A stretch of 64,000 nucleotides of DNA from NCBI GenBank assembly GCA_003153775.1, contig PMBI01000050.1, positions 191,325 through 255,324 on the forward strand, read 5' to 3'. Position 1 is the stretch's first letter. Each line of letters starts with the position of its first letter. The notes under the pieces are model-generated. The model worked only from the letters and a program-made list of their open reading frames with translations, was not told where the DNA came from and did not search any database. Made by a program: the position numbers and the translations under genes. This document shows, piece by piece, positions 46,377 to 58,795 of the stretch. This stretch comes from Syntrophaceae bacterium (GTDB taxonomy: Bacteria; Desulfobacterota; Syntrophia; Syntrophales; UBA2185).

Positions 46377-46448
46377 CGAAAATCTATAGGCATGTGATAT
46401 TAAAAAAATCCCATGTCCCTTAAACAGCCCTGAAAATAAAATGAGTTG

Positions 46449-48362
46449 ATGCTGTTGATGACAAAGAAAAAATCCAGAAAAAGTAAGACAAAAACAAAAT
46501 CAACGAAATTTTTTGGCGGGGATTCAGTTCCATCAAATCTTCCTAGAAATTCCAAAATAATGATTTTAGAATACTATCAGAAAGCCTTTGCTCTTTTTCA
46601 TAATGAATATTGTAATCGTCCAGATTATTTTCGGGGTCCTCATCCCATACGAAATAGATATTGGCAATTTATGCGAGAAGGTACTTATGATCTTTATCAA
46701 GCCCGTCAACTTCTGGGTCAATATTTGTCAGTATTAGAAAGGGAAATGTCGGAAATAATCCAGAAGCACTCCTTGGCATATTGGTTACACATTTATAGAA
46801 GATTATTTCCCGGAACAGCTGGGAGAGATGAGCAGCCCGGTACTATAATGCTTACAAGAGCCGTGCTCGAAGCTGCAATTCAGAAGTACGCGAAGTTTGC
46901 TTTATGCGACGGAATTGCTTTAAGTAAAGATGTCCGTATGGAAGATATCTTGTGCGGCTTGTTGATGGCACCCGAGTTTGAAATGGAAAGAGAACTTATT
47001 ATGGAGGGTCCCAATCAACTTGTGCTTACAAATTTCTCCACGGATGAGTTTATAGAGTTTTATCAGGTTGAGAAGCTTGCTTATGAAGTATGGAGAGCCG
47101 CGGCAATGTTGAGATCTATTGGCAAAGGTGCAAAGTTCGTAATTGAAAACAGTTCAACTCGATTTGACGACGAAAGGTCTGAGGAACTCAATTTTTTGAT
47201 AGTCTCGCATGATGAAAGGTTGTCAGGCGCATTTTCTGTTTCAGCAAGTGGAACGGTATTTGAGAGCATTGGAGAGGATACGACTGGATGTATTTTCATA
47301 CCCGTCTACAATGCTGGAGCTATAAATATAGACCGTCTTCGAGAGGGGATCGGAGAATTTTGTGGAATGACTTTCGCTGAGGGATTTGTACCAAACTTTA
47401 TTTGGTTGCCTCACAACCTAAGAAATTTTCGAAGGGTGCATTTACCGTTAGCAGATAGTTTTCGTAAGAAGCATGGTGTCAACTTTGATGCTGTATTGTC
47501 TGTAATAGTGGGTATGTGTGATTATGTATTTTACCGGTGGATTGCAAGTAAGGGATTAAGGATGATACACTTTTGGCAACGTGGATATGAAGGTCCAGAA
47601 AGAAGAAGAACCATCAGCGAAGTAATTAGAAACAATATTCCTGCGGTGGCAAGGATTTTAGATATTCCAGTAGAGAAACTGCAGAGTATTGATTTTGATG
47701 CGGCTATTGATTTTTGGACGCTTGATACTGCATCTCAAAGCAAAATAGATTTGTCATACTCTGGACCTCATTCAATTTTTCTGCCCGCTGGGGGGAATCA
47801 CATATTTGTTGATTACGCATGGATGGTACGGCGACTATATGATTTGTTCTATGGAGTAAAAATTGACGATCAGAACTTCAAAGGAGAGGCTCTCGAATGC
47901 GTTATGCGAGAAGGTCCCTCAGTACTTCCGAGTGGTCCCTGCCTATCTCTTCCTGGGGAAAAACGGCAAATAGATTATGCCTATGCCAAGGGCGAGTTTC
48001 TCATCATAGCAGAATGCAAAGCTGTCGCGAGGTCAATCGGCTACGATAGAGGACATCCTTTAGCAATATCATATAGACGGGAGCAAGTTATTGAAAGATC
48101 ACTTCATGAAATTGATGGAAAGGCTCAATGGCTTGCGCAAAACCCAATAGGCAGAAACTATGATATTACAAAATTTAAGTATATTTTGCCTGTGGGTATA
48201 AGCCCTTTTGTCGAATTTATTCCAAGTCTTTCTTCTCGTTTCTGGATTTCGGAAAAGATACCGAGGGTTCTCACGCCCTCAGAATTCGAGGAATTGTGTA
48301 ACGATTCAGAAATAATTTTCATAACAGATAATATAGTAAGCATCTCCTGTCAAAGTCAATGA
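46449..48362 (+). CDS. Unknown protein with PD-(D/E)XK-like nuclease motif
   Basis: About 637 residues, family not recognised. A very basic Lys/Ser/Thr N-terminus (KKKSRKSKTKTKS) leads into a long, mainly helical part, then C-terminal residues about 475-535 show GEALECVM, KRQIDYAYAKGEF and IIAECKA. The spacing of E, ID and E-X-K fits a restriction-endonuclease-like fold. Base composition is visibly AT-richer than neighbours, suggesting transfer. It is monocistronic, next to a toxin-antitoxin segment, which makes a defence or mobile-element role possible (inference). Starts at 46446 (TTG), 46449 and 46458 are all possible. Confidence 0.6.
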   Translation: MLLMTKKKSRKSKTKTKSTKFFGGDSVPSNLPRNSKIMILEYYQKAFALFHNEYCNRPDYFRGPHPIRNRYWQFMREGTYDLYQARQLLGQYLSVLEREMSEIIQKHSLAYWLHIYRRLFPGTAGRDEQPGTIMLTRAVLEAAIQKYAKFALCDGIALSKDVRMEDILCGLLMAPEFEMERELIMEGPNQLVLTNFSTDEFIEFYQVEKLAYEVWRAAAMLRSIGKGAKFVIENSSTRFDDERSEELNFLIVSHDERLSGAFSVSASGTVFESIGEDTTGCIFIPVYNAGAINIDRLREGIGEFCGMTFAEGFVPNFIWLPHNLRNFRRVHLPLADSFRKKHGVNFDAVLSVIVGMCDYVFYRWIASKGLRMIHFWQRGYEGPERRRTISEVIRNNIPAVARILDIPVEKLQSIDFDAAIDFWTLDTASQSKIDLSYSGPHSIFLPAGGNHIFVDYAWMVRRLYDLFYGVKIDDQNFKGEALECVMREGPSVLPSGPCLSLPGEKRQIDYAYAKGEFLIIAECKAVARSIGYDRGHPLAISYRREQVIERSLHEIDGKAQWLAQNPIGRNYDITKFKYILPVGISPFVEFIPSLSSRFWISEKIPRVLTPSEFEELCNDSEIIFITDNIVSISCQSQ

Positions 48363-52616: not shown

Positions 52617-55600
52617 ATGCGGGGAAAAGCAGAAACAGAAGAAGGCCGTTTGCGGGCGGAGTGTATAGAGGAGCTCGTCCGCAGGAAGGGGCTGGACGAG
52701 GGGGAAGCGCTGGTAATCGACGAACGCCTGCTCGCGCTGATGCAGGTTATCTCTACGGGATTAGGAGATGATATTCATCTTAAGATTAGCCCCGGCGGCA
52801 ATTGGAGATATAACAGACAGACAAACGAAATTATATTCCCTGTAGGATTGTTGTTGTCCTCTTCCGTGGAAGAGGTGGTCGCCTTCTGCGCTCACGAGGC
52901 GGGGCACAGGCAAATATCCCGGCGAAGCTTGAGAAAAGCGGTATTCAAGACATTCTCCGCGAAGGAATCCACGAGGCTTCTCTTGAATGCCTTCGAAGAC
53001 AGCCGTGTGGATAACTGGCTGATAAGCATTTTCAAGGGGATCAAACACTACCTGGACATTGCCTACGACGAAATGCTCCCCCGGAATCTATCCAGGTCGT
53101 CGTACGTCGATCATCTGAAGGGTGAAATCTCTGAGAGGGCGAGCACATCCTGCCATCCATATCTCCTCTATCCGCACCTCGAATACCTGCTGGGCATGCG
53201 CTATTACTGGCTCTATGGCCGTCTTCCTTCCCGGATGATGAATCCGGAAGTCGGCGCTGCCCTGGCGCGGACACACGGGGATTTTGCCGCGATCTTCAAT
53301 CACTATCCTCCCGGGCGGGTCTCGGAAAAAGAAAAGCTGAGGTTTGCGGAGGAGACGGCCCTGATGGTGAGGGACAAAATCCTTCCGGAGTATGAAGACC
53401 TCGTCCGGATCGCAATCGCCAAACTCGCAGAGGCCATAAAAGACGGCCAGCTCCAGGTTAAGGATAGAAAATGCGCTCCCGAGGATTTGAGCCCGGATGA
53501 GATCGAGGAAGAGGCGAGAAAATTATTAGAGTTCAAAGCCAGGGAAATGGCGGACAAGTTATCCCCCAAGACGGAAAAGCACCCCAGTAAGACAGAGGAA
53601 TACAGAAGGGAAACCCCTGAAGAAACGCATGCGCGCTTGGCAGGCGGGAAATCCGCCGCGGAAAGAACAGCGCCGCTGCCCGCAGAGACTCTCCGCGACC
53701 TCATCAAGAAGCAGCGAAGGATAAACCGCGAACAGGAGGCAAAGATCGGCGAGTACGAGCGGGTATACAGGGTGATATCGAACCAGGTCCAGGCCTTAAG
53801 CGGAGTTTTGGAAAATCACTTCGCGAAAAATAAAAGGCCTTCCTTCAAGGGCTATTTCCCTTCCGGCCAGAAGCCGGATCTGCGGAGGGCCATGGAGCTT
53901 TCCCGGAAATTGGGCGAGGGTATCCCCGTGCAGGATAAGGATCTCAAGGTCTTTCTGAAGAGGAGACTCCCGACACAGAGGGACCACAAGATAATCCTCG
54001 CTCTCGATGAATCGGGTTCCATGGATGAGCCCAAGAGGACGTCCGCGCTCGCAGGGCTTCTCGTCTTTATGGAGGCTCTCGATCATATCGGCATCGATTA
54101 CGGGGTAATCGGATTTTCCGACAGCCCTATAATGCACAAAGAGTTGGGCGTGAAGCTGGATAATGCAGGCCGGCGGGTATTGTTTGATGAGGTCTCCCTG
54201 TGCATACCGGGAGGCTCCACCGCCGATGCGGATGCGCTCCAGTTAGCGACAAATATATTAAAGGATCAACCCGAGGATTCATCGAGGTGGATCATCATGG
54301 TAACGGATGGAGAAGGAAACGTGAACACAACCGGTAAGACGTTTGTCGAGCTCCAGAAGGAGGCACTCGACAAAAAGATAGAAGTGCTCGGTGTAGGTCT
54401 GGGCGAAGAGGTGACGGAGGTCATAAAGAGATACGCAAGCGGCATGCAGATTGACAACGTGGAAGAGCTGCCGTCGGTGCTCTCCGGCATACTGGAGGAA
54501 AAACTTGTTACGCAGGATGCATACTGGGACAGTTTTCTCACGCCCCGGCATGAGGCCCGCATTGACAGAGAACAACCGGAGGCATCGCTGCCGCAGGATT
54601 TATCGGAGCTCCTGGCGTCTCTCTATCTTTATCTGAAAGAGAACATTCCCGCTTTCAATGTCAGGCATCTGAAGAGGGCATCGGAGCTCCTGGGATTTTT
54701 GCTGAACCGCGGTTATCCGGGAAAAGAAGCGTTCGGAAGGAGCCTGAAATACGCCTTTATAGATACCCAGGAACAATCCCAGAGGGTGAGAGAGCTTATC
54801 CTCGAAAGGATTGAGGAGATGAGGAAGATATTTCCGGACATCACCCGGGAGGATCTGCCCCAGGAATTTCACTCGGCGTCATCACAGGTGGATGTCCCTG
54901 TGTCTGCGATCCCTCACGACCTGGTCTCTGTCCTGGATATTTTGATGAAGAATAATACTCATCCTCAGATCGAGAAGGCCCTCTCGTTGTTGAAAGAGCT
55001 CGTCGATTCTTCTGACATGGCTTTCGTGAACATACCCGGACTGGAAGCGGGTTTCCGGGTCATTGATGATGAACTTCTGAAAGGGATAACGATAGAGGAA
55101 CTGGAGAAAAAGGCAGAGGACAAGAGCTGGGCTGTCCGCCAGCCCGCAGCCTTAGCCCTGGGCCGGGTTTATCTCGCACTGATCAAACTGGGAAAAGATT
55201 GTGACTTGAGTCCGCTCGAAGAAATGCTGAAGGATGAAGATCCGTCCGTCTGCCGCGCCGCCGCCCAGGCTTTAAGCCGTATCTGGTATCATTATTACGG
55301 CAAGAGACATATAACGCTGGAGGCATTGGAGCGTAGACTTAAAGACGAGAACTGGGCCGCCCGCCAGGCTGCGGCAAGGGCTCTCGGAAAGATATATCCT
55401 CCCCTTATGGAACAGGGAATAAATGTGGACATCGGCAAGCTGGAAGAAGGGTTGTGGAATAAGAATTGGTTTGTACGTCAGGCCGAGGCTGAGGCATTGG
55501 GAGAAACCTACCGCGCTCTTATCAGGAAGGGAGTAGAGATCAACCTCGAGGGATTAGAAGAAAGATTGAAAGATAAAAATGTATTGACCCGTCAAACCGC

Positions 55601-58031
55601 AGCCCTGGCCTTGGGACAGGTCTATCCGCCCCTCATAAAGCGAGGGCGAGATGTTAATTTGGGCAAATTGGAAGAAAGGCTCGACGACGATGACTGGTCT
55701 GTCCGCCAGGCCGCTGCCGTGGCCTTGGGCCGGATATGGTTTCACAGCTATTACCATGGGAAGATGGTCTTGAAAGATTTGGAAAAGAGACTCGAAGACC
55801 CAAGCTGGCCTGTCCGCCAGTCTGCATGCCAGGCCCTCGGGCAGATCTATCCGACGCTTATCAGGCAGGGGAAAAATGTGAACTTAGAGAAATTGGAAGA
55901 CAGGTTAAGAGACGCCGATGTAGACAGGTCCGTCTGCCAGGCCGCAGCCCAGGCCCTGGGCCGGATCTGGCCTCAGAGCTATCATCGGAAGAAGATAACC
56001 TTAAAAGAGTTGGAAGAGAGGCTGAAGGACGAAAACTGGTTTGCGCACCAGGCTGCCGCACTCGCCTTGGTCCGGATACAGCATGCCCTTGTCAAGAAGG
56101 GGAATAAGGCCGAATTAAACAAACTGGAAAAAAGATTGAAGGATAAGATCTGGTCTGTCCGCCAGGCCGCGGCACGGGCTTCAATAAAAATCTTTTCGGA
56201 TATAATCTCGAGCACGAAGAAAGAATTTAGGAAGGTGCTCGCTTCCTTCAATGAGATGCTAAGTAAACCTATGGGAAATACCATAGCAGGCACACATGCG
56301 GGCCAGGTGCAGATAGGTGAAGAGACCTTAGTCGTGGGAGATATGATCTTAGACAGGGGATCGAGCAAGAGTGATATACCCGACTGCGTGATGACGGAAT
56401 CCGGCTATCATATTTTAGAGACGTTATGTATCGGCTATCTATTAAGACACTCCGTCCTGCTGCTGGGACCTACGTCAACGGGAAAAAGCTTCCTGATCAA
56501 ATGGCTCGCATGTGTGTTGGGCTATGAGCACCTCTCGTATTCCATCAACCCCTACACATCCAAGTTTGAGATAATCGGGGGCATTAAACCCGACAGGGAA
56601 GGTCGGTTCGTCTGGCAGGACGGCATCCTTCTGAATGCGGCGCGAGACGGCCTGTGGCTGACTCTCGAAGAGATAAACCTCGCGTCTTCCGAAGTGGTCG
56701 AGATAATGAATGACTATCTCATTACGGGAAGGATATCCTACTCGGCAAACGGGGAGCAGAAGGAATTGTATCCCCATCCCGCATTCAGGCTCTTTGCCAC
56801 AGGGAACCCGGAAAGTTACAGCCAGAGGCAGAAACTCTCCGAGGTATTTCTATCCAGGTTCAAGATCCTCTATCAAAAAGAACTTTCGGAAGAGGAACTG
56901 TCACAGATACTAAGTTCTTTATTCGAGATTACTTCCTCCTCGGCCCTTCCCATTGCGAGATTCCACACTACTTTGCAGAATCAGGCAGACAGCCGCATCA
57001 TTGGCAAGGGGGAAAAGGACCCGTATATATTTACCCTCAGGGACATAATAAGACTGGGGAGGAGGTTGGAGCCGCTCCTCGAGAATAGACCAGCCGATAA
57101 GGAATATTTCAAAAAGTTTTTCCTCGAGTTCTTCAGCGTCTATATAGGGAGGCTCAGAGACAGCTCCGAAAGGGAGGCAGTTGTCAGTCTCTTGGATGCG
57201 CATTTCGGTTTCCGGGCTGAAGGCTTAGATCTGGAAGAAGTACTCAGATCCGCTTCGCTGGACATGGATTCCCTCCTCGCAGCCCTGACATCTTCAAAGG
57301 GAGATAAATTGATTCCCAGACAGGATGCAGCGATTGTGCCCACGCCGACGCAAAAAATAACGCTCTATCTCCTCCTCACGGCCCTGATAAATAACGAACC
57401 TCTTCTTGTAGCGGGAAATCCTGCCTCAGGAAAGACGACTCTCATCAGATATCTCGCCTACCAAAAAGAGACGAACCTCTACTATGTCAACCTCTCCTCC
57501 GATACGGGCTTGGAAGAGCTTCTCGGCGGCTACATCCAGGATAAGAAAGGAAAATGGCATTACACGAAGGGCCTGCTGTTCATGGCAATGGAGAAGGGAA
57601 GCTGGCTTCTCATAGATGAAGCGAATCTGTCTCCTCTGTCCGAATACCTAAATACGCTGCTCGACTTTGGCTACGTCATCGATGGAGAGGAGAACGTGTG
57701 TCACGCCCATCCTAATTTCAGGATATTTCTCTCGATGAATCCTCCTTCCGTGCATCAATCAAGAAACCTGCTCTCGCCTGCCCTGAGGTCCAGGTTTACC
57801 GAGGTCTGGGTTGAGGAGTTGACCGATCTGGGAGAACTGGCCGGTCTAATAGATACCTGGAGCTACGCGCACGGAGAAGCGCGTGCGTCTCGCAAAGGAA
57901 AGAAGGCAAAAAAGAGGAGAGATGCACGTGATAAAAAAATCTCAGGTGATAAAAAACCGGTAAAAACCGACGCAAAAAAAGAGGGTGAAAAATTTGCATC
58001 ATACAAACGATTTACCCATTATTCGACGTGA
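52617..58031 (+). CDS. Giant zincin-VWA-HEAT-double AAA+ (MoxR/midasin-like) fusion protein
   Basis: About 1,804 residues from ATG 52617. Order: HEXXH segment HEAGH (about 93-97) with downstream LLNAFEDSRVDNWL, as in CobT/NorD-type VWA proteins; charged linker; VWA domain with MIDAS LDESGSMDE (about 464) and STADADAL; helical region; ten 37-38-residue HEAT-like repeats (about 824-1196, consensus LEERLKDENWxVRQAAA.ALG); AAA+ module 1 (GPTSTGKSF near 1284, LTLEEINLAS) and module 2 (GNPASGKTT near 1600, LLIDEANLSP, SPALRSRF), both AAA_5/midasin-like; Lys-rich tail. Probably an ATP-driven remodelling or metal-insertion machine; function unknown. Usually the MoxR and VWA parts are separate proteins. 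Confidence 0.9.
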   Translation: MRGKAETEEGRLRAECIEELVRRKGLDEGEALVIDERLLALMQVISTGLGDDIHLKISPGGNWRYNRQTNEIIFPVGLLLSSSVEEVVAFCAHEAGHRQISRRSLRKAVFKTFSAKESTRLLLNAFEDSRVDNWLISIFKGIKHYLDIAYDEMLPRNLSRSSYVDHLKGEISERASTSCHPYLLYPHLEYLLGMRYYWLYGRLPSRMMNPEVGAALARTHGDFAAIFNHYPPGRVSEKEKLRFAEETALMVRDKILPEYEDLVRIAIAKLAEAIKDGQLQVKDRKCAPEDLSPDEIEEEARKLLEFKAREMADKLSPKTEKHPSKTEEYRRETPEETHARLAGGKSAAERTAPLPAETLRDLIKKQRRINREQEAKIGEYERVYRVISNQVQALSGVLENHFAKNKRPSFKGYFPSGQKPDLRRAMELSRKLGEGIPVQDKDLKVFLKRRLPTQRDHKIILALDESGSMDEPKRTSALAGLLVFMEALDHIGIDYGVIGFSDSPIMHKELGVKLDNAGRRVLFDEVSLCIPGGSTADADALQLATNILKDQPEDSSRWIIMVTDGEGNVNTTGKTFVELQKEALDKKIEVLGVGLGEEVTEVIKRYASGMQIDNVEELPSVLSGILEEKLVTQDAYWDSFLTPRHEARIDREQPEASLPQDLSELLASLYLYLKENIPAFNVRHLKRASELLGFLLNRGYPGKEAFGRSLKYAFIDTQEQSQRVRELILERIEEMRKIFPDITREDLPQEFHSASSQVDVPVSAIPHDLVSVLDILMKNNTHPQIEKALSLLKELVDSSDMAFVNIPGLEAGFRVIDDELLKGITIEELEKKAEDKSWAVRQPAALALGRVYLALIKLGKDCDLSPLEEMLKDEDPSVCRAAAQALSRIWYHYYGKRHITLEALERRLKDENWAARQAAARALGKIYPPLMEQGINVDIGKLEEGLWNKNWFVRQAEAEALGETYRALIRKGVEINLEGLEERLKDKNVLTRQTAALALGQVYPPLIKRGRDVNLGKLEERLDDDDWSVRQAAAVALGRIWFHSYYHGKMVLKDLEKRLEDPSWPVRQSACQALGQIYPTLIRQGKNVNLEKLEDRLRDADVDRSVCQAAAQALGRIWPQSYHRKKITLKELEERLKDENWFAHQAAALALVRIQHALVKKGNKAELNKLEKRLKDKIWSVRQAAARASIKIFSDIISSTKKEFRKVLASFNEMLSKPMGNTIAGTHAGQVQIGEETLVVGDMILDRGSSKSDIPDCVMTESGYHILETLCIGYLLRHSVLLLGPTSTGKSFLIKWLACVLGYEHLSYSINPYTSKFEIIGGIKPDREGRFVWQDGILLNAARDGLWLTLEEINLASSEVVEIMNDYLITGRISYSANGEQKELYPHPAFRLFATGNPESYSQRQKLSEVFLSRFKILYQKELSEEELSQILSSLFEITSSSALPIARFHTTLQNQADSRIIGKGEKDPYIFTLRDIIRLGRRLEPLLENRPADKEYFKKFFLEFFSVYIGRLRDSSEREAVVSLLDAHFGFRAEGLDLEEVLRSASLDMDSLLAALTSSKGDKLIPRQDAAIVPTPTQKITLYLLLTALINNEPLLVAGNPASGKTTLIRYLAYQKETNLYYVNLSSDTGLEELLGGYIQDKKGKWHYTKGLLFMAMEKGSWLLIDEANLSPLSEYLNTLLDFGYVIDGEENVCHAHPNFRIFLSMNPPSVHQSRNLLSPALRSRFTEVWVEELTDLGELAGLIDTWSYAHGEARASRKGKKAKKRRDARDKKISGDKKPVKTDAKKEGEKFASYKRFTHYST
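55088..56205 (+). repeat. Ten tandem HEAT-like repeats (about 111-117 bp period) inside the giant gene
   Basis: Coding repeats with the recurring pattern LEERLKDENW..RQAAA.ALG.IY. Adjacent units are similar enough to suggest internal duplication, yet diverged enough to be stable. They are protein repeats, not a CRISPR array. Confidence 0.85.
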
Positions 58032-58795
58032 GCACCATGCTCTCTGCAGGTGAAATAGCCAGGCGTCTCTTTGACAGTGTATTCCATAGAGGGGAAAACG
58101 CCGTCATCGAAGAGGTTCGCATCGGCCTCGGCTATGTGGGGGTAAGGTTGGATGAAGGGCGCGTGGGGCTGGCGGCCGTGCTGCTCCACGACCTGCCGTC
58201 GGGCTGTTCCGTATTTCCCGATGCCGGAAGATTGGCCGGATCAAAGACAGCCTCTCTCCTCGTAAACCTCATAGAAAGACGGGAGCCCCTGGAAAAAGCC
58301 TTAGGACTTGCTGCTGCGAATGCCGTTCTTCATACAGCATTCGGTGAAGATGAAAGAGACTCCCTCTCGATCATGCAATTGACGCCTGAAGACCACGTCG
58401 CCATGGTCGGTCTCTTCACACCGATGGTTCGGAAGATCGAAGCAACGGGAGCGAAGCTCACCGTCATTGAACGAAATCCCGCCCGCCTGGCCGTCCTCGA
58501 TAAAAAAGAAAGTGATAGGATATTGAAGGAATGCACTGTCGCGATTATTACGGCAACGACTATCCTTAACGACACCCTGGAAGAAGTTCTGAACGGCTTG
58601 GGGAATCCAAGGCATGTAGCCATCCTCGGCCCCTCGACACCCCTCTGCCCAGACATATTTTATGACACACCGGTCAACCACCTGGGAGGCGCCGTAGTCC
58701 GGGATACGGGGAAAGTCATGCAGATCATCTCCGAAGGCGGCGGCACCCCGGCCATGCGCCCCTATCTGCGATTCATCAACCTGCTCGTTAAATAA
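58028..58795 (+). CDS. DUF364 (putative heavy-metal chelation) protein
   Basis: 255 residues with the N-terminal DUF4213-like and C-terminal DUF364 Rossmann-like parts: VAMVGLFTPMVRKIE, VIERNPARL, IITATTILNDTLEEVL and LGPSTPLCPDIFY. The family is annotated as putative metal chelation from structure, without a proven reaction. The GTG start at 58028 overlaps the giant gene's TGA, and an in-frame ATG lies at 58037, so the two genes are translationally coupled. This is the best clue to the giant protein's role. Confidence 0.8.
   Translation: MSTMLSAGEIARRLFDSVFHRGENAVIEEVRIGLGYVGVRLDEGRVGLAAVLLHDLPSGCSVFPDAGRLAGSKTASLLVNLIERREPLEKALGLAAANAVLHTAFGEDERDSLSIMQLTPEDHVAMVGLFTPMVRKIEATGAKLTVIERNPARLAVLDKKESDRILKECTVAIITATTILNDTLEEVLNGLGNPRHVAILGPSTPLCPDIFYDTPVNHLGGAVVRDTGKVMQIISEGGGTPAMRPYLRFINLLVK

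Follow-up and report, generated by a model that had tools for sequence, protein, structure and literature searches.

A fused bacterial gene for a predicted MoxR/VWA-type AAA+ machine with a CobT-type head and midasin-class AAA modules

Organization of the gene and its product

The window, i.e., the whole analysed stretch of 64,000 nucleotides, contains at positions 52617-58031 a single open reading frame for a protein of 1804 amino acids. The frame is open upstream to 52554, and the Met encoded by the ATG at 52617 is counted as residue 1, a start set by conservation (it is common to the relatives, at or near this position) and by an RBS-like GAAGG 5' of it. The gene is present as a single copy in the source genome (3.13 Mb, 98 contigs, 99% complete). 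The features listed below refer to the family to which the window belongs (f1, nine genomes) and to a distant family of the same phylum (f58, five genomes with the machine), which are compared with each other in alignments A4 (zincin-VWA) and A5 (HEAT-AAA-AAA).

52617-58031, + strand: whole gene, in the order zincin, linker, VWA, helical/HEAT, AAA1, midasin-type lid, AAA2, Lys-rich tail
52617-53426, + strand: predicted CobT-type zincin-like domain (residues 1-270), from hhalign to the N-domain of CobT-like proteins
52893-52907, + strand: HEAGH motif (residues 93-97), invariant in f1, HEAGH or HEIGH in f58
52986-53006, + strand: N-x-F-E-D-x-R motif (residues 124-130), invariant, with E127 or D128 as putative third zinc ligand
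53427-53936, + strand: charged helical linker from zincin to VWA, from alignments and predicted helices, analogous to the NorD linker (PMC13036017)
53979-54536, + strand: VWA domain with complete MIDAS, from Pfam VWA_2 and VWA, hhalign to the CobT VWA, and Foldseek VWA matches including NorD
54006-54020, 54219 and 54306, + strand: MIDAS elements DES(G/A)S, T and D (residues D464-E-S-G/A-S468, T535 and D564)
54537-54611, + strand: fusion junction linker (residues 641-665), the meeting point of the two split-form genes, from the gene ends and starts in f58
55101-56198, + strand: ten HEAT repeats, from Pfam HEAT (4e-42) and HEAT_2 (5e-38) and alignment A5
56379-56876, + strand: AAA1, midasin-class, with Walker A GPTSTGKS (56466-56489), Walker B LEEIN, sensor Asn and Arg finger SRF
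56895-57209, + strand: midasin-type AAA lid of AAA1 (PF17867), Pfam 2e-15, over the curated cut-off
57339-57851, + strand: AAA2, with Walker A GNPASGKT (57414-57437), Walker B LIDEAN at 57615 and Arg finger SRF, no recognisable lid
57879-58028, + strand: Lys-rich tail with the conserved end KR(F/Y)TH(F/Y), from alignments, present in the fused family f1 alone
58028-58795, + strand: DUF364/DUF4213 gene, with a 4-nt GTGA overlap with the preceding gene

The initial annotation had listed, for one ORF, a HEAGH motif, a VWA domain with MIDAS, ten HEAT-like repeats and two AAA+ modules with complete Walker A/B motifs, and had proposed an HMM search for AAA_5, VWA and HEAT. This search recovers VWA_2 (3e-8), HEAT (4e-42) and two copies of AAA_5 (6e-37), together with AAA_lid_7, the 'Midasin AAA lid' (2e-15), while the first 400 residues are without a Pfam match. 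The domain order was read correctly, as judged from Pfam and the motifs, and a MoxR-class AAA module and a MIDAS VWA domain do occur in the same protein; the description needs correction only in calling both AAA modules complete, since AAA1 shows Glu-Glu in its Walker B motif and AAA2 lacks a recognisable lid. The HEAT array of f58 (L036-L040) is longer than that at 55101-56198 of the window, with roughly one extra repeat inserted at each of two positions in the alignment.

Conservation of the fused gene

The fused gene is present in all nine f1 genomes, colinear where the contigs allow and with sequence identities of 66-94%. Seven copies (that of the window and those of six further genomes) are readable from start to stop, another is distributed over two contigs, and the last is interrupted by runs of N and a contig gap; the same fused frame was also recovered from separately deposited MAGs. 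HEAGH, the ED motif, the MIDAS, both Walker motifs and the arginine fingers are conserved among the full-length f1 copies, and in each of the main domains most of the nucleotide differences among the relatives affect the third position of codons. The junction of 34 codons varies freely, as a linker would.

These observations dispose of the notion that separate genes were joined by an assembly artefact, which had been named beforehand as a finding that would overturn the reading of a single chain. It would have fitted the two genes carried by the related family f58, but the uninterrupted frame in six further genomes and in separately deposited MAGs, together with the constrained substitutions on either side of the junction, leaves it practically no probability, and the fused copies in 9/9 genomes at 66-94% identity exclude an assembly error for this gene.

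The remaining 146 genomes of the order lack the gene, and a search for the AAA half in 395 genomes of the phylum yielded, beyond f1, only the five genomes of f58. The scan of genome contigs for relatives used patterns built from one sequence, so that it finds close relatives only. Viral contigs and phages contained no relative of the machine, and plasmids gave partial MoxR-type AAA matches only.

The zincin-VWA head

The zincin-VWA head of the protein is of CobT type, as concluded from profile comparisons that indicate homology along both domains to CobT, the VWA subunit of the cobalt-inserting cobaltochelatase. In hhalign, the zincin domain matches the N-domain of CobT-like proteins with a probability of 95.7% (E 9e-9) and the VWA domain matches that of CobT with 98.9% (E 1e-17), these E-values stemming from pairwise comparison of shallow profiles; controls (cross-domain, reversed and DUF2201_N) reached at most about 1.4%. 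The homologous N-domain and VWA are in the same order as in CobT. The VWA domain also scores 21.1 bits against CobT_C, at a cut-off of 21, while the Pfam CobT N-domain (PF06213) matches neither the machine protein nor any other protein of the source genome, the similarity being visible in profile-profile comparison only. Neither CobN nor CobS is found among the annotated genes beside the machine gene. As a further potential source of the zincin domain, the DUF2201_N metallopeptidase-VWA family was considered and rejected, the profile comparison giving 0.5%.

HExxH and a candidate third ligand are conserved in every copy covering the region, the HEAGH or HEIGH reading in f58 coming from the four copies that do so. 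The conserved Glu-Asp about 30 residues after HEAGH is invariant here and in CobT-like proteins, and H-E-x-x-H ... N-x-(I/L)-E-D is shared by CobT-like proteins from phages and from other genomes of the phylum. The sequence of biosynthetic CobT (9uka chain G) can be aligned along its length and has Glu-Gln at the position of Glu-Asp; its site positions read DSMAL... and EQARVE, so that the metal site has been lost. CobT-like proteins with intact HExxH were observed at L060 (P0002), L066 (P0003) and L067 in genomes of the phylum, and genome G133 harbors a full CobT-like copy and a second, broken-looking one elsewhere on the chromosome. The AlphaFold2 model of the zincin-VWA half, built from a shallow alignment (mean pLDDT 45), shows with low confidence a helix-strand-strand-strand-helix order that fits a zincin. 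The zincin assignment is thus a prediction, based on the conserved motifs and the homology to CobT.

The AAA modules

The two AAA modules should be regarded, by their sequence relations, as midasin-class and as much nearer to midasin, the ribosome-assembly protein of eukaryotes, than to NorQ, CbbQ or CobS. Used as a profile, the AAA half matches midasin with E 1e-123 over six modules, compared to 9e-7 for CbbQ, 8e-6 for CobS and 9e-5 for NorQ; the best single midasin stretch (128 bits) runs from the end of midasin AAA2 through AAA3. The PF17867 lid was found in 5/148 sampled genomes of the phylum, all of them belonging to f1 or f58, and in 0/14 control genomes. In a small maximum-likelihood tree of AAA sequences, with midasin, phage CobS and MoxR included and dynein and NorQ not represented, AAA1 and AAA2 of the bacterial proteins group with the modules of midasin and are separated from phage CobS/MoxR (98/94), as they are when long branches are left out (100/99); for or against a single clade of the bacterial modules, the tree does not discriminate (p-AU 0.31). 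AAA1 and AAA2 are 33% identical to each other, so that their duplication is old.

The Walker B motif of AAA1 is LEEIN, with Glu-Glu replacing Asp-Glu, and is invariant in all homologues read, whereas AAA2 ends in both f1 and f58 just past the arginine-finger region, with no recognisable lid. Midasin-class AAA modules and one midasin lid are present; of the remaining hallmarks of midasin, the protein has two AAA modules instead of six, no long linker, and its VWA domain on the N-terminal instead of the C-terminal side. The AlphaFold2 models of both halves (shallow alignments, mean pLDDT 45 and 46) are too poor to show a zincin fold or a VWA 'finger', and the Foldseek matches of these low-pLDDT models to VWA domains including NorD and to Rea1, NorQ and CbbQ lend weak support only.

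Fused and split forms

In all five f58 genomes, the machine is encoded by two adjacent genes overlapping by 8-23 nt, one for about 580 residues of zincin-VWA and one for about 1150 residues of HEAT-AAA-AAA. The order of f58 is represented by one further genome, of a different family, from which the machine is absent. Separate, adjacent genes for the AAA and VWA parts are therefore a feature of f58 and not of f1. Since f58 has the same machine as two overlapping genes, the single chain can be traced to a VWA/AAA gene pair that became fused. Because separate genes are the normal state for VWA and MoxR partners, the split form is probably ancestral, the fusion having occurred in f1.

Neighbouring genes

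The DUF364 gene is single-copy in eight of the nine f1 genomes, in all eight immediately downstream of the machine gene, and is absent from f58. In the ninth genome (L025:342-1442), an ORF joining GNAT and MobB lies directly downstream instead, and GNAT and MobB genes follow further along in several f1 loci. A function of DUF364 in metal chelation, by means of a flavin or pterin derivative, has been proposed (PMC2954201). The gene after the split machine encodes, in one f58 genus, a large ribonucleotide reductase (RNR; barrel domain plus TSCPD) that was judged to be of class II; copies lie at L040:9057-11246 and L038:949-1986, the latter being shorter (345 aa). The DUF364, MobB and RNR neighbours are suggestive of metal or cofactor clients, and this hint is weak because the neighbours of f1 and f58 differ, DUF364 being absent from f58. 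Elsewhere in the window, a 638-aa ORF at 46446-48362 has no Pfam or PADLOC match and lies in a stretch of low GC content (41.5% versus about 50%), and is possibly a recent arrival.

Discussion

We consider it reasonably likely that the gene encodes a one-chain AAA+ remodelling machine of the MoxR/VWA type, which would have arisen by fusion of a CobT-like zincin-VWA gene to a midasin-class HEAT-AAA-AAA gene. In such a machine, pairs of AAA1 and AAA2 would assemble into a ring, in the simplest case from three chains with six modules, and the HEAT array would serve as a scaffold linking head to motor. The MIDAS may grip the client, with the putative zincin domain as a second grip that might bind metal or cut the client. 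ATP hydrolysis would rotate the VWA domain relative to the zincin domain by way of the charged linker, following the proposal for NorD. In NorQD, metal insertion is enabled by the AAA ring, which rotates the VWA domain relative to the N-terminal one and stretches the linker (PMC13036017); the same order of N-domain, charged linker and VWA suggests a similar twisting here, by which the client would be opened or strained to allow insertion of a metal or cofactor, activation or repair. MoxR/VWA machines are known to be of general occurrence (PMC7159879). That the client itself is metal- or cofactor-dependent is weakly indicated.

Several other functions have to be weighed against remodelling. The protein might be an ATP-powered metalloprotease, in which a substrate captured by the VWA domain would be unfolded or presented by the midasin-class ring and then cut by the intact zincin, for degradation or maturation. 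Every copy covering the region has retained HExxH and the ED after it, whereas biosynthetic CobT, a pure remodeller, has lost HExxH, and the related head of P0002 matches PHROG 459 (3e-14), a family annotated as 'peptidase'. However, no CobT-family member in this comparison has a demonstrated peptidase role, there is no sign of a proteolytic chamber or of a threading pore, MoxR/VWA machines act by remodelling and not by threading, and a zincin-type site can bind metal without proteolysis, so that we regard proteolysis as rather unlikely. Far less credit is due to the AAA part being a static scaffold with little ATPase activity: the Glu-Glu in Walker B of AAA1 and the missing lid of AAA2 would agree with this, but Walker A, the catalytic Glu, the sensor-1 Asn and the arginine fingers are retained in both modules of f1 and f58.

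A role in defence or conflict appears equally remote. MoxR-vWA ternary conflict systems (PMC7159879) share the MoxR AAA and vWA core and include HEAT or metallopeptidase domains among their effectors, and the narrow, patchy distribution and some weak PADLOC matches (mad8, 5e-9, to the AAA; HEAT-ARM) point in this direction. Yet these matches are to generic AAA and HEAT sequences, and the conflict systems consist of separate genes with variable effectors, whereas the machine is one constant gene in its family, present in 9/9 genomes at 66-94% identity, with the same neighbours in most of them, and not as variable cargo. Moreover, no effector or mobile genes were recognised directly beside it in the loci read, and the whole machine was not found in phages, plasmids or viral contigs.

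The preferred remodelling machine is related to biosynthetic CobT and midasin, but should not be counted as a member of either. With CobT and CobT-like proteins it shares the zincin-like N-domain, charged linker and MIDAS VWA in identical order, both domains being homologous, whereas CobT forms its own, unfused chain with a separate AAA partner, CobS, and has no HEAT repeats, and its biosynthetic form has lost HExxH. The combination of zincin and VWA is not new but that of the CobT head, and HExxH is likewise kept in bacterial and phage CobT-like proteins. With midasin (Rea1/Mdn1), the shared features are tandem midasin-class AAA modules, a midasin-type lid and the presence of AAA and MIDAS on one chain; the differences are two AAA modules instead of six, the N-terminal side of the VWA, the absence of a giant linker and of the second lid, the presence of zincin and HEAT, and the bacterial origin. 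The reverse VWA order and the lack of HEXXH and HEAT in midasin were thus noted correctly at the outset, but the kinship was underrated, considering the midasin-class modules and AAA1 lid (1e-123, PF17867). NorQ/NorD and CbbQ/CbbO likewise combine an AAA ring with a MIDAS VWA protein with N-domain and linker, and their mechanism is likely similar, but they consist of two chains with single-AAA subunits of distant AAA similarity and contain no HEAT-tandem-AAA chain. The DUF2201_N-DUF2201 proteins (putative metallopeptidase-VWA) have HExxH in some cases beside a VWA-like domain and an adjoining MoxR-type ATPase gene, but their N-domain shows no profile similarity to the zincin domain of the machine (0.5%).

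The survey of proteins with the same domain order that had been suggested was run within the phylum and gave the fused form in 9/9 f1 and the split form in 5/5 f58 genomes. The proposed one-polypeptide machine is hence a true single chain in f1, but the single-chain state is not essential, as f58 uses two overlapping genes. The statement that no system with this layout had been described agrees with our literature search, mostly of open-access papers, which found no bacterial protein of zincin-VWA-HEAT-AAA-AAA layout.

A more far-reaching possibility is that of a bacterial sister lineage of midasin, combining the two-module motor with a CobT-type head in which the zincin would be an active maturation protease gated by ATP. 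This appears doubtful, but if true, it would represent a MoxR-class counterpart of the AAA+ metalloproteases and a possible pointer to an origin of midasin from VWA/MoxR gene pairs. MoxR/VWA machines insert metals and remodel enzymes, and their AAA:VWA stoichiometry and the role of the head N-domain are hard to study with separate chains. The natural fusion fixes one VWA per two AAA modules, and a split form exists for comparison. As the head keeps a metal-site motif lost by biosynthetic CobT, it becomes possible to test which role the CobT N-domain had ancestrally, and bacterial tandem AAA modules of apparent midasin class with a midasin lid would bear on where midasin came from.
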